DNA of 64,000 bases from Entoloma clypeatum. Its lineage: Eukaryota; Basidiomycota; Agaricomycetes; Agaricales; Entolomataceae. Of the stretch, positions 14,460 to 34,125 are shown piece after piece. The DNA is taken from positions 930,001-994,000 of the forward strand of contig OY751487.1 in the NCBI GenBank assembly GCA_963565915.1. Reading direction: 5' to 3'. Position 1 is the first letter of the stretch; every line of letters begins with the position of its first letter. The notes under the pieces were generated by a model, which was not told the DNA's origin, searched no databases, and saw nothing but the letters and a program-made list of their open reading frames with translations. Position numbers and translations under genes: made by a program.

Positions 14460-14925
14460 ATCATAATGATGTTTGAATTATAATTACAATGATGCTTCAT
14501 TGAATTATAATGACATCAAATTATGATGACATTGAATGACCAGATTGTCGAGAGGTGAGCGCGAATTATAATGACGGCGAATTATAATGACATCAAATTA
14601 TCAGATTGTCGAGAGGGTGAGTGGGTGTCGAATTATAATGATGGCACTGAGTGACGTGTTATAATAATCACAGAATGTCGGGACGGCGAGTGAAATTATA
14701 ATGGCGGCGAATTATAATGTTCATCAGAGAAGAGATTGTCGGGGGGGTGAGTGGAATGATAATGATGTCGAATTATAATGACAGGCATACTGATCACAAT
14801 GGGATCCACAGTGGAGGGAGCATGGAATAATGACGAGGCTTCGGAGGGAGGATGGGACAGTGGGCTTCCATTATAATTCGACAAACATTAACACAAGGGG
14901 TACACAATTGACTGGAGATATTATA
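14460..14925. repeat. ATTATAAT palindrome array, right KDZ subterminus
   Basis: About fifteen ATTATAATGA-type units separated by G-rich spacers (CGAGAGGTGAGTG-like), oriented as the reverse complement of the left array at 3150-3600. The array runs up to the right inverted terminus. Confidence 0.8.
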
Positions 14926-15244: not shown

Positions 15245-15646
15245 TGTTATGCTTAACAAACCGTTCCAAGGTTCAGGCAGAGTATGCAGGAAAGTGGAAA
15301 GGCGAAGAGCAAAGTGATTGCTAAATCTAAGGAATCTACTACAGTACAAGAGGTTTATATAGGTACTGACTATAGGCAGTAGCGGATGAGTCAGTACTGC
15401 GGAAGGCAGTGCACATGAGTAAGGCGACTGCGGAAGGCTATGTACAGTGAGTAAGCTGACTGCAGAAAGTGAGTCAGCGCGGGAGCAAAGTATACTAAAG
15501 GGGATGACAAAGTAATGTAATGAGTCAGACTGGGAATCGAAGGTTGCAAAAGTAGACATTAGACATAGTGAGTTCATAAGAGGGCGCCGAGTCGGGCCGA
15601 TAAGTAAAAGATATGACGTGGTCCTCATACCGTAGAGTCTGTAACA
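15245..15646 (-). repeat. 3' LTR of element A
   Basis: 402 bp, downstream LTR relative to the minus-strand coding direction. Its inner flank carries a polypurine tract and its outer flank the CCTTC duplication. Confidence 0.93.
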
Positions 15647-15660
15647 TGTTCCCCTCTCCA
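15647..15660 (-). promoter_or_regulatory. Polypurine tract of element A
   Basis: Minus-strand sequence GGAGAGGGGAACA lies directly against the 3' LTR, the expected position for the plus-strand DNA primer of reverse transcription. Confidence 0.75.
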
Positions 15661-15680
15661 AGCTCTGTGTCCTCACAGAG

Positions 15681-16052
15681 TCACTGTCCCCATCCCTCGT
15701 TGTTGCCGGGATCGGACCAGTTCGGACTTTCCTTGAGGCTCCAATCATATATCAACTCCTCGTTGATGGCTACGGCGAGTTCAAGGCCTTTGATGGCCAG
15801 CTGAATGCGTCGATTTTCGATGACGAGGGTGCTGGTGTAATTCCCGAGAATTTGTTTCTCTTCGGGAGTCGGGGCAACGGGGAGATTGGACAACGAATGA
15901 AGTCGGATATTCATCTGGCGATGAAGGAGATTGGCGAGGGAAGTTTCAAGGGCATGGATTTGGTCTCTCATGGAGAGTGCTTTGTTCATAAGGGTGGCGA
16001 TGGCGGGATTGATGTCGGTGGTGGAGGTGGAGGTAACAATGGTGTTTGACAT
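15681..16052 (-). CDS. Element A 3' accessory ORF, 123 aa
   Basis: An intact minus-strand frame (MSNTIVTSTSTTD to NNEGWGQ) lies between the chromodomain end and the polypurine tract of element A, in the sense direction. The middle (residues about 20-100) is predicted helical with heptad-like leucines (LHSLSN, IENRRIQLAIKGLELAVAI), so a coiled coil or oligomerisation role is possible. It has no cysteines and no signal peptide. Chromoviruses do not normally encode a third ORF here. It stays open while pol has seven stops, which may be chance given its length. No family recognised. Confidence 0.5.
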   Translation of the reverse strand: MSNTIVTSTSTTDINPAIATLMNKALSMRDQIHALETSLANLLHRQMNIRLHSLSNLPVAPTPEEKQILGNYTSTLVIENRRIQLAIKGLELAVAINEELIYDWSLKESPNWSDPGNNEGWGQ

Positions 16053-16189
16053 GGCGGTGAGGATGGTGGAGAGATAGAAGTAGAATGGGGTGGCTATATT
16101 GGGCAGGGAGAAGACTAGAGCAGGGAACTCGGTGTGTGGTTGACTGATGAGGTCGATACTGCCATGGGTTTTGAGAACTCATCTTTTAT

Positions 16190-17651
16190 TGTGGACGAGA
16201 CGGGTTCTGCCGATGGAAATCATGGATCAAATCTTGAGCGTTCTGAACATTAGTTTGAGGTTCCCATGTGTTCTCTTCTGGACGATATCCTTCCCACTGG
16301 ACGAGATACTGGATCTTTCTGCAGAACTTTCGAGAGTCTAGGATTGTAGACACATGGTACTCTTCTCATCCTTCGACGATGATCGGATCAGGGGCTGGTT
16401 TTTTTTTCTGGATGGCATACTTCGGAGTTTCATATGGTGACAACAGAGTCTCGTTGAACACAGGGTGAATCATCTTCCAAGTCTTCGGAAGATCAAGAAG
16501 GTACGTGCTAGCTCCTTTCTTCTCTAGGACTTTGAATGGTCCATGTCGGAGTGCATCAAGTTTCTTTGAGGGGCGATCGGTCCTGATGTTAGTCCCTTCC
16601 AGCCACACCTTGCCTCCAATGTGGTAGTTCCGAGATGGACTTCGCCGTGTGTCAACTGTCTTCTTCATCTGATCCTGTGCTTGTTTCAGCGCTGCATTGG
16701 CTTCTTCTCGTGCCTGTTTGAGTTTTTTCAAGAAGTCGTTGGCAGCCGGATTGGTATCTTCTAACACGAGCTCTCCCTTCCACGGATGTAAACCATAGTT
16801 GAGGTAGAATGGGGTGTGCTTCATTGCCTGATGTTCTTTGTCATTGTACTGGAACTCTGCGATTGCGATCCATTCAGCCCAATCATCCTGTAGATGGTTG
16901 ACAAAGTTTTGTAAGAACGCTTCCGTCTCCTGATGCGATCGCTCGGCCTGTCCATCAGTCTGTGGGTGGTATGCGGTGGACAGGTTCCTCTTGATCCCTA
17001 ACATGCGGCAGAGTATCTCCATGAACTTCGCGGTGAAGTGCGGTCCCCTATCGCTGATGATCTTCTTGGGGATCCCATGAAGTTTCCATATCTGATCCCA
17101 ATAGATCTTGGCTAATCCTTCAGCTGATAGTTCCACGGTTGTCGGAATGAGGTGAAGCATCTTCGAATGTCTATCCGTGATGACCAGAATTGTGTTTTTT
17201 CCATCAGATTCTGGTATTGGTCCCATGACGTCAATTCCTATGTCTTCCCATGGGTGACTTGGTGCTGCATGGGGATGTAGCGGAGCATGTCACTTTTGTC
17301 GGTTAATCTTGTTGCGTTGACACGTGTCGCAACCCTTCACATACTTCTTCACATCATGCAGTATGGTAGGCCACCAGTAGGTGCGAGTGAGGAGTTCATG
17401 TGTCCGGTACTGTCCTGGATGTCCAGCCACTGGTGCATCGTGTGACTCGAACATCAATTCTTGTCGTAATTGTGTGTCTGGCGGGACATAGACTCGTTCT
17501 CCTGCATAGGTGATCCCATTCTCCTGCTGATACCAATGAGGATTCTTTTTTAGGCCCTGCGCTACTTCTGTCTCCATGCGGTTTGAACCCTTGATGCGTG
17601 CGATCCACAGATTTTCAATGGTTGTGACATTTCCAATTTTGATGGAATCAG
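16190..17651 (-). pseudogene. Element A pol, 3' part: integrase and chromodomain
   Basis: Continues element A pol beyond the element B insertion. The integrase zinc-binding region reads HDAPVAGHPGQYRT then CDTCQRNKINRQK. The catalytic core includes IGIDVMGPIPES, ISDRGPHF and TDGQAERSHQE, giving the D, D and E residues. A chromodomain follows (ILDSRKFCRKIQYLVQWEGY then NTWEP). In-frame TGA codons occur at 17290-17292, between zinc finger and core, and at 16366-16368, just before the chromodomain. The protein is therefore broken in three pieces. Confidence 0.88.
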
Positions 17652-18196
17652 TGTCACGTAGCGTGTTTCTCAACGTTGGAAAACGTCAGACGAGTCGGAG
17701 CGGAGTAGCGGAGGAGCGGAAAAAGCGGTGAGTGCGACGTTGGCAGAAAGGACCTGGCTTCAACTTGTGCGTTGCGCCCCACTCTGTGACTTGGTCCTCG
17801 ATTTTGGATTGGCGGATGTCGGATGAGCGGATGAGCGGATGAGCGGAGGTGATGGAGAGAATGCTCAAAGGCAAGTAGAGACAGATGCGAATGAGGTATA
17901 ACGTATGATATTTGAACTGAGGTTCTACAACAGGTTTGTACACTATTTATAGTAGACTAGAATGATCAGCATTACTATAAGTGATGTGCAGATATCGGAG
18001 TTGACCATCGGAACATTCGGAGTACGGAGAGTAGCAAATGAAAAGTGAACAACATATGTCTACTTGTAAGTATGGTTGAGATGTTACGTAGTAGAAGTAT
18101 ATTCAATATAAATAGAATGTCGTTGGAGCGGATGTCGGAGTGGATGAAATGTTGGAGTCGTCGGATAAGTCGGATGTGAATCGTATGGTTATGACA
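17652..18196 (-). repeat. 3' LTR of element B
   Basis: 545 bp, TGTCA...TGACA. By eye it contains about 18 CGG triplets, almost all as CGGA and all on the plus strand. Confidence 0.93.
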
Positions 18197-18213
18197 GTAT
18201 TTCCCTCTTAGGG
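18197..18213 (-). promoter_or_regulatory. Polypurine tract of element B
   Basis: Minus-strand AAGAGGGAAATAC abuts the 3' LTR of element B, the expected site for priming of plus-strand DNA. Confidence 0.7.
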
Positions 18214-18327
18214 CCAAACCCTGAGGCCCAGATGAGGTAATCCATGTGACCGTTGGTTGAAAAGCTTTGTGCGTGATCTTTCTCTCTTGTCACCCAACCA
18301 CAACATCTATCCCGACGCCTATCCGTT

Positions 18328-19328
18328 ATGTCCGCTGAGAACTCACCCCTCGCCGCTCTTCGTGCTGAAAGGGAGCGCCAGAAGAAGGTCACCGAAGAGT
18401 TGGAGAGGAAGCTGCAGGAGGCAGAGGAGCGCGCGAAGGAAGATGCAGAGCGCATGGAGGCGAAGAGGGCGGCGAAAGAGCAGAGACGAGCAGAGAGGAA
18501 GGCAGAGAAGGCGAAGGCGAAGGAACCGGTTGCGGGTGCGGGTGCGGATGCAGATGCGGCGAATGTGGAGGTGAAGAAGGTCTGGCTGCAGGGGGTTTTC
18601 AAGAATATGCCTGCGAGTTATGAGCAGGGGAAGGAGGATTGCACCTCCTGCTTGAAAGCGGGAGACTTGTGTTTTTGGCCACCGGAGTGACTTTTTTCTA
18701 TTTCTTTATACACTTCGTTATTAACTTGTTCTTTAGGAATGACAATGCTTCGTTGTGCTGGTGGTGCCAGCGTTTAAAACGAAGCTGCAGAACGGGAGCG
18801 GAAGCGGAGTCGGAGGTGAAGCGGAGGATGACCAAGGCGGTGAGGGTCGGAAAGGCTAAGGTGGCAGGTGGTGCGACGAAGAACGCGAAGGCGGGATCGT
18901 CCAAGGGAGAGGGGACCGCGGAGGGATTGCGGATAGCCGCAGTGTCGGAGGAGCCGGAGTTCATGCCGGAGGGGTTTGGTCTGCCAGAGGTGGTCATAGG
19001 CACGGAGGTGGTGAGAGGGCTTAGGAGCATGATAAGGGAGATGCGGCTGATAAGGGCGGAGTTGAAGGAACTGCGGGAGATCAAGGAGCTTTTGACGGTT
19101 ATCGCGTGGAGGGAGGATTCGGAGGCTTCGGAGGAGGGATCCGACGAGGACGAGGATGCGGAGGAGGATGATAGGATATTGGAGGAGTTGGCAAAGGAGG
19201 TAGAAGATGAAGAAGAAAAAGAAGAAGAAACAAAGAAGCGGAAGCGGATGGAGGAAGCGGAACAGGAATCCGGATCGGAGTGGAACGAGGAGACGCAGGG
19301 GGTATCTAACAAAAAACAGCAAAAGTAG
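18328..19328 (+). CDS. Antisense accessory protein of element B with Zn2Cys6-like cysteine pattern
   Basis: Two exons, 18328-18686 and 18737-19328, are joined by a GT-AG intron of 50 bp and give about 316 residues. The N-terminus is a highly charged helix (ERERQKKVTEELERKLQEAE), followed by WLQGVFKNMPASY. The cysteines then run CTSCLKAGDLC, eleven residues, CWWCQRLKRSC, that is C-x2-C-x6-C-x11-C-x2-C-x6-C. This is the spacing rule of fungal Zn2Cys6 (Gal4-type) DNA-binding domains, and the second half is split from the first by the intron. A helix (LRSMIREMRLIRAELKELRE) and a very acidic tail with a final basic patch follow. The gene is antisense to and convergent with pol (44 bp between stops). 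DNA binding is inferred, not shown. Confidence 0.75.
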
Positions 19329-19372
19329 TTTTTTGTTAGTATAAAATTTTAATAGATTTTCTTTTCTTTTTG

Positions 19373-22300
19373 TTACAAGCGCGATAAGGGGCCTGGCTTA
19401 GTTGGTTGAGCGGAGTGGAAGTCCGCTACCGTATCCGCTGCGTGTTCAAGCTCAGATGCGGGTAACCAAGAAAACTCTTCACTGGTGTCTTCATAACCTA
19501 ACCAGCGGACGAGGTAAAGGAGTTTGCAGCGTCGTCTTTTATTGATCTTTGAGTCGACGATTTCCGCAATTTCGTATTCGGTTTCTCGATCCATCTCGAG
19601 CGGAGGCGGAGGAGATTGTATCCGATTTGGAATCTCGTTAGGAGTTGCTGGTTCAAGCATGGATATGTGGAAGATGGGGTGTATAGCACGCATAGTGTCA
19701 GGTAGACGTAGTGTAAAGGAGTGCGTGCCAGGTTGGGCTATGATTTCAAATGGGCCAGCATATTTGTCAGATAACTTTTGGGTGGGTCGTGTGGTGCGGA
19801 AGAACTTGGCTTTAACAAAGACTTCTTGTCCGACGCGGAGCGGAGGAGGCGGAGAACGTCGGACGTCCGCAGGGCCTTGATAACGTTGTTGTGCCTCTGC
19901 GACAGCAGTCTTTAGTTCTTGATGTAATTCATCTAAGTCAACAATGTATTGTCGAGCTTTATCGGATGCTAGATCACGTTCTGGATGGAGTGTAATGTCG
20001 GGATGATAACCTTTGTTGGCGAAGAATGGTGATACACCTGTAGTGGCACTCGGAGTGTTGTTGTAAGCGAACTCTGCAAGCGGAAGCAAAGCGGACCAGT
20101 TGTCTTGCTGGTAGTTGCAGAAAATGTGGAGGTATTGTTTGAGTGTCTGGTTGGTGCGTTCGGTTTGACCATCGCCTTCGGGGTGATATCCAGAAGTGAA
20201 GTGAAGTCTCATGTTGAGGGCTTTTGCAAGAGAGCGGAAAAAGCAGGAGACGAATTCAGGTCCGCGATTGGATGTGACATTTTGCAGAACTCCGTGCTTG
20301 GAAAAGACGTGAAGCACGAAAAGGTTTGCTAGGTCTTCGGATGTGCAATCAATGGTGGTAGGAATGAAGATGCCTTGTTTAGTGAGGCGGTCTACAATGA
20401 CCAAAATCGCATCGGAGCCAGCGGATGTCAGAAGGGGTTCAATGAAGTCCATGGAAATAGAATGCCAGGGACGTTCAGGAATAGGGAGTTGTTTAAGCAG
20501 ACCATAGGGTTTATGATGTTGGGGTTTGGCGCGCATACAAGTGGTACATGACTTGCAATACTTTTTGACGAAGTCGTGCATTCCAGGCCAAGTGTATTCT
20601 CGTTGGATAAGACTAGTAGTCTTATTCTGACCAGGGTGTCCAGCGAGGATATGGTCATGCTTATTGCAGAGGATGCGGAGACGGAGGTGGGATGAGTCAG
20701 GAACGTAGATACGTCCATTGTGGAGTAGATAACCTGCTTCATTCACGATCCAGCGTGGATTAGGATTGTCGAGGAAAGAGGTGTAAATGGGATCGGTCGG
20801 AAGAGCGGAGAGGATGTCGGAGCGGAGCTGATCCGTATCCATGATGATTGTGGCATGGAGGACGGGCGTATATAACTCTGTTGCGCGAAGTGAAGTGGTG
20901 AGCTGTTCTTGTGTGAAGATGGGTTTGAAGTTGCTTGGGTTGACGGACGAATAGTCGCTATTTCCCTCTTTAGGGTAGACATCCCATCGTCTACTTAAAA
21001 GATCGGGCTTCGTACCTACACAGCCAGGGCGGAAGCGGATGACGAGATTGAACTGGCAGAGGTATTCGGACCAACGAGCTTGTTGACGTGATAAAATCTT
21101 GGTAGTAGAAAAGTACTCAAGATTTTTGTGGTCCGTTACGACATCGATCAGAGCAGCGGAGCCTTCAAGGTAGTGACGCCAAACCTTGAATGCATCGTGG
21201 ATCGCTAATAGTTCTTTGTTGTGGGTGTCATAGTTTAACTTGGGAGGTGTAAAGGTGCGGGAGTGGAAAGCGACTGGATGGATTTCGTCGTCGGAGGTGC
21301 AGATGGAGAGGATCACACCCAAAGCATAGTCGGAGGCATCGGTTTCGACGATAATAGGGCTGTCGGGAATCCAATGTGTAAGAACAGGTGCTGTGGTAAA
21401 GGCTTTCTTCAAAGTTTTGAAAGATTCGCGAGCGGAGTCGGAGAAGTGCCATTGTGTGTTTTTGCGGGTGAGTCGAGTGAGCGGAACGGTGATTTTGGAG
21501 TAGTAAGGAATGAATCGTCGATAAAAATTGGCAAAACCTAAGAAAGACTGAATATCTTTGACCTTCCTTGGTTCAGGCCAATCTTGAATAATTTTGACTT
21601 TCTTATCCGACATGCAGAGGCCTGTCGGAGAGAGGATAAAGCCAAGGTATTCAACAGTATCCGTAGAAAATTCGCATTTGTCTGCGCATGCATATAAGCC
21701 GTGTTGTCGGAGACGTCGGAGGACTTCGCGGACATGCTTCTGATGCTTGGAGGGAGAGTCGGAGTAGATGAGGATGTCGTCGAGATATATGGTAACATAC
21801 TTATTGAGCAGGTCGTGGAAGATGTCGTTCATGAAGCGTTGGAAAACGGCTGGGGAGTTGGTGAGTCCAAATGGCATGACAAGCCATTCAAAAGACCCGT
21901 AGTGCGTGCGGAAGGCGGTTTTCCATTCATCTCCTTCCGCTATGCGGACGAGGTGATAGGCGTGTCGGAGGTCGAGAGCCATATAAACACTGGCTTTTCC
22001 AGCGGTCTGGAGAAGGTCGGATATGAGCGGAAGCGGATATCGGTCCTTCTTTGAGATTTTGTTAAGACCACGGAAATCGACGCAAAGATGAAGGGAGCCA
22101 TCCTTTTTACGAACAAAAAGGACGGGAGCACCGTGCGGAGAGGAAGAGGGTCGGATGAATCCAGTGGTGAGGTGTTCGTCAATGAATTCACAGAGGGCAT
22201 TGAGTTCGGTTTGTGAAAGGGAGTAGATCGGACCGAACGGAGGAGCGGAGCCCTCTTCAAGTTCGATCTTGAGGTCGTAGGGATGGTGGGGTGGAAGGGT

Positions 22301-23049
22301 GTCTGCTTTTCCTTTACTGAAGACGTCAGCATAGTTGTGGTATTCTTCGGGTACGTTTGTCAAGTCGGGGGTGTCGGAAGCGGATGCGGAGTGAGCGGAA
22401 ACGGAGGGAGTCGAAAGGTGAAGTCGAAAGGATTGTGTACCAGGCAATTTGCATGCCCTCATAAATGCGGCTGCATCAATGAGTGAAATCTGCGGAGTGG
22501 ACTGCGGAGGTACGATCGGAGGTTCCGGAGGAGGAAGCGTAGCTGTCCTACCTTGGGAGGAGGTCGACGTCGATGTCGGAAACGGCTCTTTTTGCATCTG
22601 TGGATGGAAAGTGATACTGCCCAATACCCAGTCAATCATAGGATTGTGGCGGGTGAGCCAGTTGTATCCAAGAACCACGGAAGAAGTGGAGTCGAGCGGA
22701 GTAACATAAAAATCCTGTTCGAAAAATTCACCTGAAGGAAAACATATAGGTATTGTTACAACTTGAGTGATAAACGCATTAGAAGAACCATCGAAAAGCT
22801 TTAGTTCTAAAGGCGGAATAGCGGAGGTCGGAAGATCATAAGCAGAGGAAAAGTTAATGTCAATAAAACAGTGGGTAGATCCTGAATCAATAAGTGCTGG
22901 GACAGAATCTGAAGAGAAAAAAGAAGATGAGATATTGATACGTAAAGAGTTCGTATCGGAGAGAGCGGACGCGTTAAGTCGGATGGGAGCGGAGGCACGG
23001 AGAGAGTCAACGCAGTCCTCAGACCGTGCTTCATGAGGACCACTGCCTA
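19373..23049 (-). CDS. Element B Pol polyprotein (PR-RT-RNase H-IN-chromodomain)
   Basis: An uninterrupted minus-strand frame of about 1225 codons. Domains in order: aspartic protease (ALIDSGSTHCFID), reverse transcriptase with VDFRGLNKISKKDRYPLP and the YLDDILIYS catalytic motif, RNase H (ETDASDYALG, THNKELLAI), integrase zinc finger (HDHILAGHPGQ then CTTCMRAK) and core (SMDFIEPL, TSNRGPEFVS, GDGQTERTNQTLK), then a C-terminal chromodomain (IVDSKINKRRRCKLLYLVRW). It is entered from gag by a -1 frameshift at 23050-23056. No premature stop was seen. Chromodomains of this clade steer integration to heterochromatin marks, in keeping with its nested position. Confidence 0.93.
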
Positions 23050-23056
23050 TTTTTTT
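23047..23056 (-). promoter_or_regulatory. -1 ribosomal frameshift site between gag and pol (element B)
   Basis: On the minus strand gag ends TCA AAA AAA TAG. The seven adenines form the canonical heptamer A AAA AAA in the right phase, directly before the gag stop. Slipping back one base gives ATA GGC AGT GGT CCT, which is exactly the pol frame. Confidence 0.8.
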
Positions 23057-24018
23057 GACTCGATCTCCTTACCTTTTTCCTTGGCTTGAGTGCCAACTTG
23101 GGCGGCTTTCCCTTTAGCCTTGGAAGCAGAGGAGGTGGACTTGGGACAGTCCTTGACAGCGTGTCCGACGCTACCGCAGAATAAGCAAAGGTTATTATCG
23201 AAACGACGTTTGCGTTCTTGATACGTCAGTTTGCCGTCTTTGCCTAATTTACTGAAGAGGTCGGGTTTCGGAGCGGATGTGGAAGCGGAAGCGGTAGCGG
23301 GAGCGGAGGGTTTGGTTGATGATGTTTGTGGAGTGGATTGGTTCGGAGCGGATTGTTTCTTGTCGGACTTGAGAGTGGGTTTATCGGTTCTGGATTTCTC
23401 TCGTTGACATTCCCAGTAGCGAGTGTCAATAGTATGAGCCGCGGATCGTAGGTCTGGTAAAGACTTGATCTTGGGTTGTTGGGAGAGGATGTCCTTGATC
23501 CGATCCGGAAGTCCGACGTAGTAGCGGTGTCGGAGGGAGTTTTCATCCCAGTCAGTCTTGGTAGCAAGACGTTGGAATTCAACGTTGTACTTCAATATCT
23601 TTTGATTTTCCTTCATCCGTAGGTTGTCCAACTGTTCTTCGGCTTCGCCCTGAGGGTCAATGGTACCAAACTCGGAGCGGAGAAGTCGGACAAACTCGGG
23701 GAAAGAACCCCGCCAATTGGGTTCATCATCGTCTAGAATAAAGGGTTCAAAAAATTCGAGTGCTGTGCCTCGGAAGTAAGACATGGCAAAGTTGACTTTG
23801 GAATGTTCTGAGTCGAAGTTGTCGTTGTCGGAGAAGTAAAATTTGCATTGTAAAATGAATGTGGAGAGTTTGCGCAGATCGGATCCATCGAAGGTATCCG
23901 GTTCGTTGGCATACGACTTTTTCTTCTTTGTAACTCGACGTTTCAACTCTTTGGTCATGAGCAGAATGGCTTCAGCTAGATTGGGTTCCTGATCTGGATT
24001 GGAATCGGAGTTGTCCAA
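23047..24018 (-). CDS. Element B Gag
   Basis: 323 residues from ATG at 24016-24018 (MDNSDSNPDQEP) to TAG at 23047-23049. It contains a retrotransposon-gag capsid-like region (FILQCKFYFSDN, YFRGTALEFFEPF, LRMKENQKILKYNVEFQRLA) and a single CCHC zinc knuckle (CLFCGSVGHAVKDC). The linker is rich in Ser/Ala/Pro (KPSAPATASASTSAPK). The C-terminus is lysine-rich and ends at the slippery sequence that connects to pol. Confidence 0.9.
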   Translation of the reverse strand: MDNSDSNPDQEPNLAEAILLMTKELKRRVTKKKKSYANEPDTFDGSDLRKLSTFILQCKFYFSDNDNFDSEHSKVNFAMSYFRGTALEFFEPFILDDDEPNWRGSFPEFVRLLRSEFGTIDPQGEAEEQLDNLRMKENQKILKYNVEFQRLATKTDWDENSLRHRYYVGLPDRIKDILSQQPKIKSLPDLRSAAHTIDTRYWECQREKSRTDKPTLKSDKKQSAPNQSTPQTSSTKPSAPATASASTSAPKPDLFSKLGKDGKLTYQERKRRFDNNLCLFCGSVGHAVKDCPKSTSSASKAKGKAAQVGTQAKEKGKEIESKK

Positions 24019-24377
24019 ATCTCCATGTAAACTACCGTCGGAAGGAGGAGGAGATCCTCCTGGAGGTCTGCCGAATAAGCCAGAATTTAGAGGTGTGGAG
24101 GGTTCCGTTGGTGGGTTTAGTGGAGGACTGGCAGGAAGTGGTGGGAGCTGAGAGTTGGAAGAGGGCGGAGGAACGGATGGTCCGGGGGTAGGAGCGGATG
24201 ATGATGCTGTGGCTCCTCGAGGGGTAATGGTTACATTGCGTGTTCCTCAAAGAAAAGCAGAGCGTGGTGTGGAGGATGAATGTTCTGCTGCTGCACGAGC
24301 AGTCCTAGTTGTTCGAACTGTATTACGGGTTTGAGACATGTGGGTAGAGGTTGTTGGATAAATCAAAGAATGGTGGT
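24019..24377 (-). other. Element B leader between PBS and gag
   Basis: The 5' untranslated leader of element B RNA. An open frame (24032-24250) is Ser/Pro-rich and may be an upstream extension in another frame; no domain is visible. Confidence 0.5.
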
Positions 24378-24390
24378 AGTTCAAATATAC
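24378..24390 (-). promoter_or_regulatory. Self-priming PBS of element B
   Basis: Minus-strand sequence after the 5' LTR is GT then ATATTTGAACT. Those 11 nt are perfectly complementary to AGTTCAAATAT in the same LTR (24647-24657), which lies 33 nt below the TATA box. No tRNA-type TGG start is present, so priming by the RNA's own 5' end, as in Tf1/sushi chromoviruses, is inferred. Confidence 0.75.
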
Positions 24391-24935
24391 TGTCAAGTAG
24401 CGTGTTTCTCAACGTCGGAAAACGTCGGACGAGTCGGAGTGGAGTAGCGGAGGATAGGAAAAAGCGGTGAGTGCGACGTTGGCAGAAAGGACCTGGCTTC
24501 AACTTGTGCGTTGCGCCCCACTCTTTGACGTGGTCCTCGATTTCGGATTGGCGGATGTCGGATGAGCAGATGAGCAGATGAGCGGAGTTGACAGAGAGAA
24601 TGCTCAAAGGCAAGTAGAGACAGATGCGAATGAGGTATAACATATGATATTTGAACTGAGGTTCTACAACAGGTTTGTACACTATTTATAGTAGACTAGA
24701 ATGATCAGCATTACTATAAGTGATGTGCAGATATCGGAGTTGACCATCGGAACATTCGGAGTACGGAGAGTAGGAAATGAAAAGTGAACAACATATGTCT
24801 ACTTGTAAGTATGGTTGAGATGTTACGTAGTAGAAGTATATTCAATATAAATAGAATGTTGTTGGAGCGGATGTCGGAGCGGATGAAATGTTGGAGTCGT
24901 CGGATAAGTCGGATGTGAATCATATGGTTATGACA
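24391..24935 (-). repeat. 5' LTR of element B
   Basis: 545 bp, upstream LTR relative to transcription. It contains the TATA box and predicted RNA start. Confidence 0.93.
24647..24690 (-). promoter_or_regulatory. Core promoter of element B (TATA and predicted RNA 5' end)
   Basis: TATAAATA on the minus strand (24683-24690) is followed 33 nt later by AGTTCAAATAT (24657-24647), the sequence complementary to the PBS. The spacing fits RNA polymerase II initiation at that A. Confidence 0.7.
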
Positions 24936-24940
24936 ATCAG

Positions 24941-27113
24941 ATGTTTCACCCCCTTCAAAGAATTGTTCCTCCGTGAACATCTCCATTTGTACCACATCTT
25001 CTGCTTCCAACCGTTTCAAGAATAGTCCCTCCTTGAGCATTTGGTCACTGTCCTGTGGTTCGAGTTCCGCTTCATACCAGGGTAAGCGTGACAGGATGTC
25101 CGCTTTTGCATTGGTCTTGCCGGGCACATGCCGTAATTCGAAGTCATAGTCTTGTAACTTCATTTTCCAGCGTCGCTGTCATTGATTTAGGTCCTGAGGA
25201 CGACAGAAATATTCCAGGTTCTTGTGATCGGTCAAGATCTCGAAATGTTCCCTGGCTTCAAGCCGATAGTGTCTCCAATCTTTCAATGCTTCCATGACTG
25301 CCAGGAGTTCTTTGTCGTATATCTCGTAATTCTGTTCGGCCGCGGACATGGTCCGCGACAAGAACGCGATGGGGTGCCATTTGTCGTCTTGCTTCTGAGA
25401 GAGTACTGCTCCAATTGCATAGCCCGATGCATCGGTTTCAACCCTGAACTGTCCCTCTGGTTTCGGTAATGCCAAGACTGGTGCCGATGTAATTGCCCAT
25501 ATGAGACCTTCAAAAGCTTGCTGCTCTGTTGGTCCCCAAGTGAATGCCATACCGCCTGTGAGCGCGGTGAGAGGTTTTGCGATGTTTGAGTACCCTTCAA
25601 TAAAACATCGATAGAAGTTAGCAAATCCAAGGAACTTCTGAACTTCCTTTTTTGATGTGGGTGCTCGCCAGTTTCAGATCGTATCCACCTTCTCAGTTTC
25701 CATCTCGACATGTCCCTCACCAACCACATATCCCAATATAGGACATTTTGTTACTTCCCATAAACACTTCTTTTCCTTTAGGAACAAATCATTGTCCAAT
25801 AGGATCTGTAGGATTTCTTCAGTGTTTCATGGGAGTTCTTCCTTGGTTTTACCGATAACCACGATGTCATCCATGTAGATCACGCAGATACGTCGGCGGA
25901 TCTGGTCCTGGAATAGACTAGCCATCATTCGGGAGAACATTCCTGGGGAATTGCAAAGACCAAAAAACATGACCAATGGTTCGAACAATCCTCGACTGGT
26001 GAGGAAGGCAGCTTTCCATTCATCGCCCTTCTTAATCCGGACATTGTTATAGCCCCACATGATGTCCATTTTATTGAAGTAGACTGCATCTTTCAGTATG
26101 TCCAAGAGATCGGATATTCGTGGGAGTGGGAACTTGTCTTTGACCGTGAATTTATTGACCATGCAGTAATCTTGTACCAATTGTTTGGAGCCATCCTTCT
26201 TGTTGATGAAGAAGCAAGGGGAGGCATAAGGGGATTTGGATGGGCGGATCTTTCCTGTTGCTAGACCCTCGTCAATGAATGCATCCAATTCCTCTTGTTC
26301 CTTTTGCGTCATAGAATATGTATTTCCCCCTAGTTCCTTTGGTGCGTCCGGTGTAAGTTTGATACCATGGTCCCATTCCCTCTCCTTTGGGATCTTGTCA
26401 AAGTTCTCTTTCTCGAAAAGATGAGCAAATCGTTCAACATATGAGGGTCGTTTGGTTGTGGGAGGTGGTGTGGGAGTGACAGCTTCCAAGATAGGGTCTC
26501 CAGGCTTCCATTTCTGATCTGACTTTTTGGGTGCATCTTTGTCGCGCACCTCAACCATGCGAACCCGGTGTTTGCGACCATTAAGGTTAATCCTGAAATC
26601 CGAGTGTTTGGTTCGACACGTTGTTGGGCACCGGTTAAATGTTACCATGCCGGTTGTCCAATTGATTGTGGGGTTGTGGTGTACCAACCAGTCATGTCCC
26701 AAGAGCATGTCCGTTCTCCCAATGTCCAGTACCATTGCTTCCATGGTTTCCTGATGTGCTCCCAAATCCAGTTTGACTTCGGCAAGTTGGCTCGCTTTCT
26801 GTTGTCAATTTGGTGATCCATCCGCATTTAGAATTGCTATGGGTGGTATTCCTCACGTGGGGAGGTTCTGTTCGCGTACTATTCTGGGATGGATGCATGT
26901 GCGTTCACATCCGCTGTCAACCTCAGGTCGGATAACCTTTGGTCCTCGTCGTGTTTTGAGCTGAGCTAACAGCCTGATTTCTCGTCTTTTCGGAGGGTTA
27001 TCTCCCTTCACAATCTTAGTCGATGCAGTGGCTCGCTTGGCAGGGATGACATAGGTTCTATTGTCTGCAGTCATACAAGGCAAGCAAGTCCGTTTAATAG
27101 ATAAGGGTCGCAA
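24941..27113 (-). pseudogene. Element A pol, 5' part: protease, RT, RNase H
   Basis: The minus-strand pol of element A lies in the -1 frame relative to its gag. Protease remnants include VDSGCERTCI and LLGHDWLVHHNP. RT shows KIRPSKSPYASPCFFINKKD and the YMDDIVV motif. RNase H includes VETDASGYAIGAVLS and YDKELLAVMEAL, and ends in the linker with HVPGKTNAKADILSRLPW before the element B insertion. In-frame TGA codons occur near 26858, 26813, 25827, 25677 and 25179, most next to conserved arginine positions. The left-edge copy (1-825) has CGA at the position equivalent to the 25827 stop. Confidence 0.92.
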
Positions 27114-27124
27114 CTTAGCGTCGT

Positions 27125-27991
27125 TTAATCGGACCCTTCGGGAAAATCCTTCTCGTCGGCTTCTAAGATTGTGGTTTCATCATTCTCAGCATCTTCCTCG
27201 GACACCTTCCTAACCCTTCCAGAGTTCTTCTTTGGCTTGTGGCAGTTGCGCGCGATATGGCCTTCTTGGTCACAGTTGAAACACTTGCAACCATCTTTCT
27301 TCTTTGGAGCGCTACAGTCTTTAGTCAGATGACCGAAGCGTTGACAGTTGTAGCAACGGGCTACTCCTGCTTTGTCGATCTCCATGGTCTTGCCCTGACC
27401 ACCATAAGTGGCACCCGATCCGGTGCGCATGTCGCTGCCACCTCGGATGACCAGTGCGTGTCCTTCCATCTGTCGTCCCTTGTTTCGGATCTCCTTTGCA
27501 TAATCGGTGTATGTCTTGCCATTGCTAGCCACTTGTTCAGAGATTCTGCGGTTGATGTTTTTCTCTAGGATGTATTTCCCAGTTTCTTCGCCAAGGTTTG
27601 ACAGTTTCAAGAGTTCTTCAAATTCATCCAAGAATTCATCAACAGTGCATTTCTCTTGTTTCAGGACTTCGAGTCTTGCTTTGGCAGTGACCGACTTGTT
27701 GGCGATAGAGAATTGTGTGGCGATATCATCGGAAAAACCTAGCCAGGTGATGTTCTCGTTGTCAACGGCAAGAGCGTCTAACTTGTTACTGGCCCAGTGT
27801 CTGCCGGACCCTTCCATCATGCGGGATAGCACCGCAAGAATCTTCTGATTGTCTGTGAGGCTCTTTTGGAACCTGATGTATAGTTTGGTGGCTTTCCACC
27901 ACTCGTCAAAGGTGTATCTGTCCTTGAACATCCCAGGATCCTTGATGATCTTGGATGTATCCATTGTTTGTACAGCTGGGGCTTCTGCCAT
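27125..27991 (-). CDS. Element A Gag
   Basis: 288 residues from the first in-frame ATG (27989-27991, MAEAPAVQTMDTSK). The open frame continues upstream without an ATG to about 28360, so the natural start or a spliced leader is uncertain. A capsid-like region (YTFDEWWKATKLYIRFQKS, EVLKQEKCTVDEFLDEFEEL) precedes two CCHC zinc knuckles (CYNCQRFGHLTKDC and CFNCDQEGHIARNC) and an acidic tail (EEDAENDETTILEADEKD). Gag is still open although pol is not. Confidence 0.88.
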   Translation of the reverse strand: MAEAPAVQTMDTSKIIKDPGMFKDRYTFDEWWKATKLYIRFQKSLTDNQKILAVLSRMMEGSGRHWASNKLDALAVDNENITWLGFSDDIATQFSIANKSVTAKARLEVLKQEKCTVDEFLDEFEELLKLSNLGEETGKYILEKNINRRISEQVASNGKTYTDYAKEIRNKGRQMEGHALVIRGGSDMRTGSGATYGGQGKTMEIDKAGVARCYNCQRFGHLTKDCSAPKKKDGCKCFNCDQEGHIARNCHKPKKNSGRVRKVSEEDAENDETTILEADEKDFPEGSD

Positions 27992-28769
27992 GTCTAGAGT
28001 CTGTGGAGGAGAAGAGGGGTCGGGTTGTTGGGATGAAGATGGGGTTCGGGATACAGGTAAGGATTGAAAATGAGTCCCTGTTCTAGGCGTCTGTTCGATA
28101 TCTGACTGCGCGGAGTCAAAAGTAAATTCGTCAGGGGACTCGTCGGCGGAATCGGTGGCAAAACGTTCAGAGTATTTCCTCTGTAAATCTCTAAGGAATC
28201 TCTGTTCCTGCGCGTCTGTTGGTCTCGAGAAGGGGTCAAGTCTCTCGTTTCGTGCCCAGCGGTTGTACTTGGTCTGTTGTTCTTTGGTGGTGAAGTGGGC
28301 GTAGATCTGCTGCTTCGAGTAAGACGTGATGATGTGGCTCTGGGACGTCTCAATGTGAGCGTCCTAATCAATCTTCTGATAATGGTTGTCTGGACACCAA
28401 TAAACTCTCTGATCTCTGTGATCCGACCAGTCTGAGGTCCTTCTTGAACGCGAAAGCTTTCGAGTTCGTTCTGTCAGGCGTTGTAATGCCCAATCTGGTG
28501 TTGCCGAGCAAGATGGATGCTCTGTGCTATCTCGCCGTGGGGGCGATGCTCATCGTTGTCTAGTTCTTCATCAAGCACCTGCTGTAGGATGCGACGGATC
28601 TCCGATTCGATGTACTGCTGGATGAGTGTAAAATCGATACTGTCTCAAGGACTTAGCTCCTCCTGTCAGGCTTCTGGCGTGCTGAATGGGTTACTGGTAA
28701 AGTCTTCAAAGAAGCGCAACGTCTTGACTCGTCTGGTAGTTGCTCTCTTCGCTCTGGGCGAACCTAACG
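27992..28769 (-). other. Element A leader region
   Basis: The interval between the PBS and the gag ATG. The gag-proximal half is an open, Gag-like frame (QRFLRDLQRKYSERFATDSA) lacking an ATG; the LTR-proximal part shows no feature. A spliced or non-ATG start is possible. Confidence 0.5.
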
Positions 28770-28782
28770 AGATTTAGCAACT
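28770..28782 (-). promoter_or_regulatory. Self-priming PBS of element A
   Basis: After the 5' LTR the minus strand reads AG then TTGCTAAATCT. These 11 nt are complementary to AGATTTAGCAA in the LTR (28856-28866). The 2-nt offset and 11-nt length are the same as in element B. Confidence 0.75.
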
Positions 28783-29184
28783 TGTTATGCTTAACAAACC
28801 GTTCCAAGGTTCGGGCAGAGTATGCAGGAAAGTGGAAAGGCGAAGAGCAAAGTGATTGCTAAATCTAAGGAATCTACTACAGTACAAGAGGTTTATATAG
28901 GTACTGACTATAGGCAGTAGCGGATGAGTCAGTACTGCGGAAGGCAGTGCGCATGAGTAAGGCGACTGCGGAAGGCTATGTACAGTGAGTAAGCTGACTG
29001 CGGAAAGCGAGTCAGCACGGGAGCGAAGTATACTAAAGGGGATGATGAAGTAATGTAATGAGTCAGACTGGGAATCGAAGGTTGCGAAAGTAGACATTAG
29101 ACATAGTGAGTTCGTAAGAGGGCGCCGAGTCAGGCTGATAAGTAAAAGATATGACCTGGTCCTCATACCATAGAGTCCGTAACA
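28783..29184 (-). repeat. 5' LTR of element A
   Basis: 402 bp, nearly identical to 15245-15646, flanked outside by CCTTC. Carries the promoter of element A. Confidence 0.93.
28856..28899 (-). promoter_or_regulatory. Core promoter of element A (TATA and predicted RNA 5' end)
   Basis: TATATAAA on the minus strand (28892-28899) is followed 33 nt later by AGATTTAGCAA (28866-28856), the stretch complementary to the PBS. Confidence 0.7.
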
Positions 29185-29204
29185 CCTTCCCACACTCTTT
29201 ATTC

Positions 29205-33689: not shown

Positions 33690-34125
33690 AGGGGTGGTTG
33701 TTGGGCATGGAGGCAGTTGTTGGGCACACGGGATGGCCGTTGGGCACGGAGGGGCAGCTCTTGGGTGCAAGGGGTGGTTGTTGGGCACGGGGGCAGCGTT
33801 GGGCACACAGGATGGCTGTTGGACACAGAGGGCAGTTGTTGGGGATGGAGGGCAGGTCTTGGGTGCGAGAGATGGCCATTGGGGCACAGAGGCAGCCATT
33901 GGGCACACAGGATGGCTGTTGGGCATGGATGGCAGGTCTTGGGTGTGAGGGCCAGTCATTGGGGCACGGGGGCAGCCGTTGGGCATGGAGGGGTGGTTGT
34001 TAGGCACGGGGGCAGTCGTTGGGCACAAGGGCAGTTGTTGGGCACAGGGGCAGTCGTTGGGCATACAGGATGGCCATTGGGCATGGAGGGACAGCTCTTG
34101 GGTATGAGGGGTGGTCGTTGGGCAC
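33690..34125 (-). repeat. GCCCAACG minisatellite, array 2a (inverted)
   Basis: About eighteen degenerate units of roughly 24 bp (GTTGTTGGGCACGGGGGCAG). They are the reverse complement of arrays 1a and 1b. Because the unit is near a multiple of 3, open frames of repetitive Cys/Pro/Asn/Thr peptides appear on both strands; these are not real genes. Confidence 0.8.

Follow-up and report, generated by a model that had tools for sequence, protein, structure and literature searches.

An antisense gene with a zinc-cluster-like cysteine pattern in a CGGA-rich Ty3 retrotransposon of Entoloma clypeatum

What does a fungal LTR retrotransposon do with a spliced gene that runs against its own gag and pol? 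According to the accessible text of PMC7264820, it is not known what function antisense genes serve in LTR retrotransposons. Such a gene is found in the window studied here, a 64,000-nucleotide stretch of Entoloma clypeatum (contig OY751487.1, positions 930,001 to 994,000), and the earlier note on this DNA had suggested that it encodes a DNA-binding regulator of the Zn2Cys6 type. Here, we examine the gene, its copies and relatives in the genome, the cysteine cluster it encodes, and the distribution of CGG-type words that such a regulator might read.

The antisense gene and its host element

The carrier of the gene, element B, lies on the − strand. Its 3′ LTR of 545 bp (17652-18196) and its 5′ LTR (24391-24935) are identical at 526 of 545 positions (97%), and the target-site duplication ATCAG flanks them on the left (17647-17651) and on the right (24936-24940). 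A gag ORF of 399 amino acids with a Retrotrans_gag domain (23047-24246) precedes a pol ORF of 1231 amino acids (19373-23068) that encodes protease, RT, RNase H, integrase, and a chromodomain. Element B thus combines gag, the PR-RT-RH-IN order, the chromodomain, LTRs, and a target-site duplication, as Ty3 chromoviruses do. It is seemingly nested in a second Ty3 element, A (15500-29191); a repeat pair of 93% identity (15500-15653 and 29038-29191) surrounds it. Adjoining the LTR, a block TTAGGGC..AACCCT..GAGGC (18208-18230) recurs in locus L060 at about 265-300 and 640-690, and perhaps lies near the polypurine tract or belongs to a packaging site. Other repeats of the window comprise a 54-nt unit in three imperfect copies (GAATTATAATGAC..., 14502-14746) and an array of a ~20-nt repeat rich in TTGGGCAC (33720-34121).

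The antisense gene has the pol stop (19373, − strand) on one side and the 3′ LTR on the other. Its extent on the + strand, 18328-19328, with two exons opposite gag/pol, agrees exactly with the earlier reading, as does the position of the 50-nt intron (18687-18736, phase 2, donor GTGACT, acceptor TTTAG). Exon 1 (18328-18686) encodes a highly charged N terminus and the first cysteine triad; exon 2 (18737-19328) adds the second triad, a basic linker, a heptad-like segment, an acidic tail, and a C-terminal SNKKQ. In the window copy the spliced product has 316 amino acids, and splicing indeed brings its six cysteines, the only ones of the protein (residues 105, 108, 115, 127, 130, and 137), into the spacing C-x2-C-x6-C-x11-C-x2-C-x6-C. 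The acidic tail that had been described is also present, D and E making up 32 of the 72 C-terminal residues; the helix said to precede it would correspond to the heptad-like residues 209-244, a reading of sequence alone. A leader of 131 nt, partly pyrimidine-rich (18197-18327, + strand), leads from the LTR to the start codon, and TATA-like words occur inside the 3′ LTR at 17944 and 18107. This stretch of LTR and leader may act as the promoter of the antisense gene.

That the element carries a conserved antisense gene with splice signals, as had been claimed, is borne out by its copies, located by searching the genome (~60 Mb, 20 contigs) with the antisense gene itself. The exon-1 core of family B matches 123 places, all 123 candidates having been scored; some of these matches are fragments of the same copy. 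We aligned 50 copies, namely the window copy and 49 fetched ones (L009-L058 minus L012, which is the window), and the genome holds further copies. The intron measures 49-51 nt in all 50, and GT-AG is retained in 48, the remaining two ending in AA; the donor reads GTGAGT in 39 copies, GTAAGT in nine, GTGAAT in one, and GTGACT in one (the window). Joined at the aligned exon borders, 32 copies give an intact spliced ORF, L043 among them although it lacks the AG, and 18 give a broken one. Conservation of the six cysteines among related elements, on which the earlier proposal had staked itself, holds within this genome: from first to last they are kept in 49/49, 49/49, 50/50, 48/49, 49/49, and 50/50 scorable copies. 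Six fetched copies encode an identical antisense protein and the family occupies at least 123 places; family B has therefore been recently active. The order LTR-gene-pol was also seen in seven of 12 loci, the other five not spanning all three.

The substitutions among these copies tell of selection. Variants common to at least two copies show an excess at third positions of the spliced frame in both exons, with an observed/expected (dN/dS-like) ratio of 0.61, whereas singletons have no such excess (0.95). By symmetry, the mirror frame of the − strand shows a similar bias for shared variants (0.67 for exon 2, minus+1; 0.60 for exon 1, minus+0); since synonymous bias alone leaves the strand undecided, it is the splice signals and the cysteines that decide it. 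Among 11 copies chosen for intactness and spread (55 pairs), dN/dS is 0.30 as a ratio of sums and 0.33 as a mean of ratios, below 1 as predicted, with a higher value of 0.60 for the pair formed by L017 and the window. The 3′ part of pol gives 0.27, and thus constraint on the antisense gene, in these chosen intact copies, is comparable to that on pol, in keeping with the conservation by which an aORF-3R, the antisense gene of plant Ty3 elements, is judged. L017 and L048 are further apart at synonymous sites in the gene than in pol (0.44 vs 0.17), and the antisense gene region seems to be a mosaic. That we are dealing with a functional gene of the Ty3 chromovirus superfamily is part of the explanation that we consider best, an explanation held as a whole with some reserve (see below).

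The cysteine cluster and the order of its halves

The gene is shared by several families. By way of a related pol near L070 we reached L071 and a second family, B2, whose type of exon 2 has at least 153 matches in the genome (150 of 184 candidates scored; 100% to 58% identity among the matches listed); exon 2 of the B5 type has 150, both counts including pieces of one copy. At L072 (B2) the joined ORF spans 309 amino acids across a 56-nt intron (GTAAGT-TTTAG), and at L073 (B3) 302 amino acids across an intron of 49 nt. Both triads are present at L074 (B4), where the exon join failed the scripted donor rule. L075 (B5), encountered in a region picked solely by clustered CGGA, encodes 287 amino acids antisense to pol, with a 52-nt intron (GTGAGT-CTTAG; alternative joins are possible). 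In a second such region without known gene, L076, an ORF with the pattern C-x2-C-x5-8-C was not found. B, B2, B3, and B5 share all six cysteines and a phase 2 intron between the third and the fourth; within B, 80% of residues agree with the window protein, against 29-34% in B2, B3, and B5. The 35 invariant columns over five proteins (two of B and one each of B2, B3, and B5) include the six cysteines, K134 in the basic loop, and the C-terminal KK. L073 combines a B2 first exon, up to the cluster, with a second exon different from that of L072, which suggests recombination between families.

Do these cysteines form a Zn2Cys6 cluster, as the earlier note had it? The spacing rule, C-x2-C-x6-C-x5-16-C-x2-C-x6-8-C in the available text of PMC2447501, is followed by the window protein, B2, B3, and B5, and to this extent the assignment stands. 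The PF00172 profile does not bear it out: in natural order the isolated core scores below the cut-off of 21 bits in family B (14.0-16.6), B2 (13.1), and B5 (14.6), and B4 gives no score at all. A Pfam search with the whole spliced protein, with E allowed up to 10, returned nothing. In some of these searches other Cys-rich families score about as weakly as Zn_clus: for the window core in natural order, PSI_integrin (E 0.048) comes ahead of Zn_clus (0.057), and for the B5 core ADD_DNMT3 (E 0.0033) ahead of Zn_clus (0.035). The antisense protein is thus not classed as a member of PF00172. The low score is apparently due to a swap of the two halves of the cluster, an explanation supported for B and weaker elsewhere.

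Canonical Zn2Cys6 clusters carry a basic, DNA-contacting loop in the first CxxCx6C and a neutral loop in the second. In the antisense protein the basic loop lies in the second triad, C-WW-C-QRLKRS-C (residues 127-137; 18756-18788, + strand), which resembles the first canonical half, and the first triad, C-TS-C-LKAGDL-C (residues 105-115; 18640-18672, + strand), resembles the second. In profile searches with isolated cores, the second triad of B aligns with the first half of Zn_clus (profile positions 2-15, 3-15, or 2-14), and the first triad of B2 and B5 with its second half (19-35 and 19-31). Put into canonical order, the halves of the B core reach 22.4-25.4 bits when joined by a short linker, and a long linker gives 17.3; half-swapping likewise raises B2 to 20.8, B5 to 19.2, and B4 from no score to 10.2 bits. 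We also built a small order-scoring matrix from host and PDB clusters, with B5 and the host row L002 at 1777 outside it. The six real clusters used with it all score below zero, and B (three of three copies), B2, and B4 score above zero; shuffles reach the B delta in 342-839 of 20000 cases, and those of B2 and B4 in 4921 and 6724, the latter two being weak signals. B5 is neutral (−0.43). The host cluster at L002 is weakly swapped-like itself (delta 3.49, reached by 6599 of 20000 shuffles). We regard the antisense cluster as zinc-cluster-like, its halves being probably swapped in family B, and its two triads would hold two zinc ions.

Where such a cluster came from can be narrowed in part. Capture of a present-day host Zn2Cys6 gene finds no support: a protein search returned the gene's own family only, and the host Zn_clus exon matches, of which there are at least 18, lie elsewhere. 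A distant host ancestor is possible. The host locus L002:1282-1986 (G000:C6:2385681-2388767) holds several zinc clusters in a row; across the boundary of two neighbours, a second half precedes a first half, and a half-swapped cluster could arise by such a route. Among PDB sequences the swapped core had no match, and the natural core three weak ones that look unrelated. The protein database returned no relatives of B (E up to 0.01) or of B2 and B5 (E up to 1), a negative that is weak for other fungi.

CGGA arrays with and without the gene

On the + strand, CGGA occurs 17 times in each LTR of element B, a count that 0 of 200 dinucleotide shuffles reach (expectation 2.6), and TCCG is absent; of the 18 CGG words of the LTR, 17 are followed by A. 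Over the whole element, read on the strand of the gene, CGGA occurs 147 times (39.3 expected) and TCCG 26 times (23.2 expected). The extended word RKCGGA reaches 103 against 13.7, and the strongest six-letter words are AGCGGA (46 vs 3.2) and GTCGGA (37 vs 4.0). Codon choice does not explain the arrays in pol, whose sense strand has 70 TCCG against 36.6 under synonymous shuffling (0/1000); gag has 21 against 13.2 (0/1000), and the antisense gene itself is slightly above codon expectation in CGGA (22 vs 17.2; 42/1000). The strand bias is imperfect, the word GCGGA occurring six times on the pol sense strand against 1.5 expected. Elsewhere in the window CGGA stays at its expected level (40 vs 40.9 and 106 vs 116.9), with the reverse word of RKCGGA somewhat raised at 30000-64000 (48 vs 30.6), and eight host loci taken as controls have no clear excess (5-17 vs 9.6-15.7). 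CGG-type sites are what Zn2Cys6 regulators bind; AmyR, one of them, binds CGGN8(C/A)GG and CGGAAATTTAA, according to the accessible text of PMC5468973. The proposal of a DNA-binding regulator comes through in part: the element is strongly enriched in a CGG-type word, yet the protein stays below the PF00172 cut-off.

The other gene-bearing families have arrays as well. CGGA is abundant at the B2, B3, and B4 loci (L071-L074; 12-56 vs 6.2-15.2 expected) and at B5 (L075; 46 vs 15.8), and TCCG is raised too in L071 (15 vs 8.3), L075 (16 vs 9.2), and a piece of B2 pol (9 vs 3.8). In all five families sampled (B-B5, each family other than B being represented by a single locus or a few) the arrays lie mainly on the strand of the gene. 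A genome-wide count on both strands gives 17,285 clusters of three CGGA with short gaps, and 1,675 of the reversed pattern. We took 200 of these clusters, the first 100 listed places per orientation, all on contig C1 and many from one element. Within 3 kb, 69 have a same-strand gene, none an opposite-strand one, and 131 have neither among the gene copies listed; at 5 kb, the figures are 104 for the same strand only, six for the opposite strand only, and 90 for no listed gene; within 7.5 kb the counts are 119 same-strand, three opposite, nine both, and 69 none. In decayed LTR copies, CGGA is not consistently better retained than other CpG (602/787 vs 533/768 in one direction, 597/839 vs 538/618 in the other).

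Are the arrays then a mark of the gene? Besides the five gene-bearing families, F2, L078, and element A were sampled, of which only F2 was seen at both ends. In F2 (L077, G000:C2:4397500-4399900; L079, G000:C2:4393100-4395300) the LTR closely follows pol and gag closely follows the LTR, leaving no room for an antisense gene there; yet the sense strand is rich in TCCG, in the same orientation as in element B (pol 18 vs 6.1, LTR stretch 9 vs 2.2, gag part 39 vs 12.6), and CGGA is raised as well in the gag part (26 vs 13.4). Nine TCCG of the putative F2 LTR fall inside 86 bases. An open frame of 393 amino acids with another Cys-rich pattern, CGLCARADGHIECQCGYYVCQKC, starts in this putative LTR and extends beyond it (L077:943-2121). 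L078, of another family and with its 3′ end possibly cut, is not enriched (13 vs 14.2). Element A has a mild excess of CGGA in its right part (19 vs 10.9; 2/200) and left part (11 vs 7.5; 27/200), and of TCCG in an integrase piece (8 vs 3.2; 2/1000). The arrays of F2 rule out that CGGA arrays mark gene-bearing families only and, with the mild excess in element A, imply that arrays need no gene in cis. Their occurrence outside the gene-bearing families points to a protein acting in trans, or to a host factor, or to an RNA signal.

Possible roles of the antisense protein

Overall, we tentatively suggest, with a confidence that stays somewhat below even, that the antisense protein is a zinc-cluster-like regulator that reads the CGGA arrays of its own element and of sibling elements and favours expression of the element. 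Transcription of the gene would probably begin on the + strand within the 3′ LTR. The product would consist of a highly charged N-terminal region, two triads that hold zinc, a basic linker, and an acidic tail; the heptad-like segment could mediate dimerisation, and the basic C terminus could direct the protein to the nucleus. There it may bind the CGGA words, whose one-strand excess runs over the LTRs, gag, and pol, and such a coat on the element may sustain expression, through activation or anti-silencing, as with the unrelated VANC proteins of plants. We infer the positive sign of the effect along with the binding of zinc and DNA. A more ambitious version is conceivable, if doubtful: a half-swapped cluster protein would read oriented CGGA arrays in LTR, gag, and pol, the elements would mark and protect or activate themselves genome-wide, and array families without the gene would ride in trans.

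VANDALs, the Arabidopsis elements that encode VANC, are DNA transposons. VANC is encoded by the transposable element, binds a short word in dense arrays of one orientation, and induces loss of DNA methylation (PMC5735166, text available in part). VANC21 and VANC6 resemble the system of element B, as far as the accessible portions of PMC5735166 and PMC10398659 go, in joining a TE-encoded protein with dense short words of one orientation. In its mode of action, VANC would be the closest analogue. Dense words mainly in one orientation are found on both sides, but VANDAL words, in the same partly available source (PMC5735166), stand mostly outside coding sequence and are enriched in a single family, whereas CGGA here is neither confined to non-coding DNA nor private to a family, lying also in gag and pol, in several families, and in F2.

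How well do other explanations fare? The arrays and the gene could be two unrelated features, the CGGA words recruiting a Zn2Cys6 activator of the host and the element's own protein acting otherwise, for example in nuclear import or integration. We hold this to be unlikely: a family with arrays and no room for the gene (F2), and a host with at least 18 Zn_clus exon matches, are in its favour, but five gene-bearing families have their arrays mainly on the strand of the gene, L078 is unenriched, and the excess of element A is mild. Slightly less probable is a self-limiting repressor that binds the CGGA arrays of the LTR and lowers transcription or integration of the element, a form of copy-number control. 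The recent activity of family B, with its places and identical proteins counted above, argues against repression, and the acidic C-terminal part would be more activator-like; anatomy and arrays, on the other hand, are equally compatible with it, and transcription opposite to gag-pol could interfere with the sense RNA. Less probable again is a role on RNA, in which the protein, or Gag, would recognise UCCG of the sense RNA, for example in packaging, or CGGA of the antisense RNA, the cluster being used on RNA or single-stranded cDNA. Such a role would fit the strong strand bias across gag, pol, and LTR and the arrays of a gene-less family that has gag (F2); yet the DNA sites of VANC21 are, in the portion of the literature available, equally single-oriented and dense, and the bias is imperfect in other families. 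Very improbable, finally, is a frame that lies opposite non-coding DNA by chance or arises as a by-product of a sense-strand ORF: the − strand mirror frame with its similar synonymous bias is in its favour, but at the level of sequence chance is, in our view, ruled out by the bias of shared variants, by splice and cysteine conservation, and by six cysteines kept across families at 29-34% identity with the same intron phase, and a mirror of a sense ORF by splice signals that point to the + strand (GT-AG in 48/50 copies, with a branch-like TTATTAAC).

An array-reading, zinc-cluster-like regulator, our preferred reading, can also be set beside other known genes. In the plant Ty3 elements Retand (TRP28), Grande (gene23), RIRE2, and PvRetro13, the aORF-3R likewise run antisense in the interval from pol to the 3′ LTR, and the gene of element B, antisense to gag-pol, occupies the same position; they too have many copies and are suspected of a nuclear or DNA-binding role (PMC7264820 and PMC11963269, in the text available). 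They differ in having other protein domains, the word "zinc" being absent from the main text of both papers, and in that a self-directed word array is not described in the accessible parts of these sources. In fungi, brtn of the Boty-like retrotransposons of Botrytis cinerea (Zhao et al. 2011) is also an additional antisense gene of a Ty3 element, one for which a citing paper, available in part, names a chromodomain, as in element B. The available portions of the citing papers do not name a function or domain of brtn, which is likened here to the gene of element B by description alone. With Gal4-type Zn2Cys6 regulators (PF00172) the antisense protein shares the spacing of its six cysteines, and a CGG-type word is abundant in the element; it differs from them in the order of the basic and neutral halves, apparently swapped in B, in a natural-order score below the cut-off, and in being encoded by a retrotransposon. 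Our search of the open literature by title, abstract start, and terms, with subscription papers mostly outside it, returned no retrotransposon-encoded zinc-cluster protein and no half-swapped zinc cluster, and the terms "antisense" and "additional ORF" are absent from two papers on basidiomycete elements and chromoviruses (PMC3411680, PMC2864245).

The gene of element B offers a testable biochemistry, that of the zinc cluster, together with a testable target, the CGGA arrays. For natural comparison there are several families with the gene and one, F2, that has arrays but leaves the gene no room. If the protein does read the arrays, this retrotransposon would possess a sequence-specific system of self-regulation or anti-silencing, and its cluster, by the order of the halves, would represent an uncommon variant of a DNA-binding domain that is very frequent in fungi.
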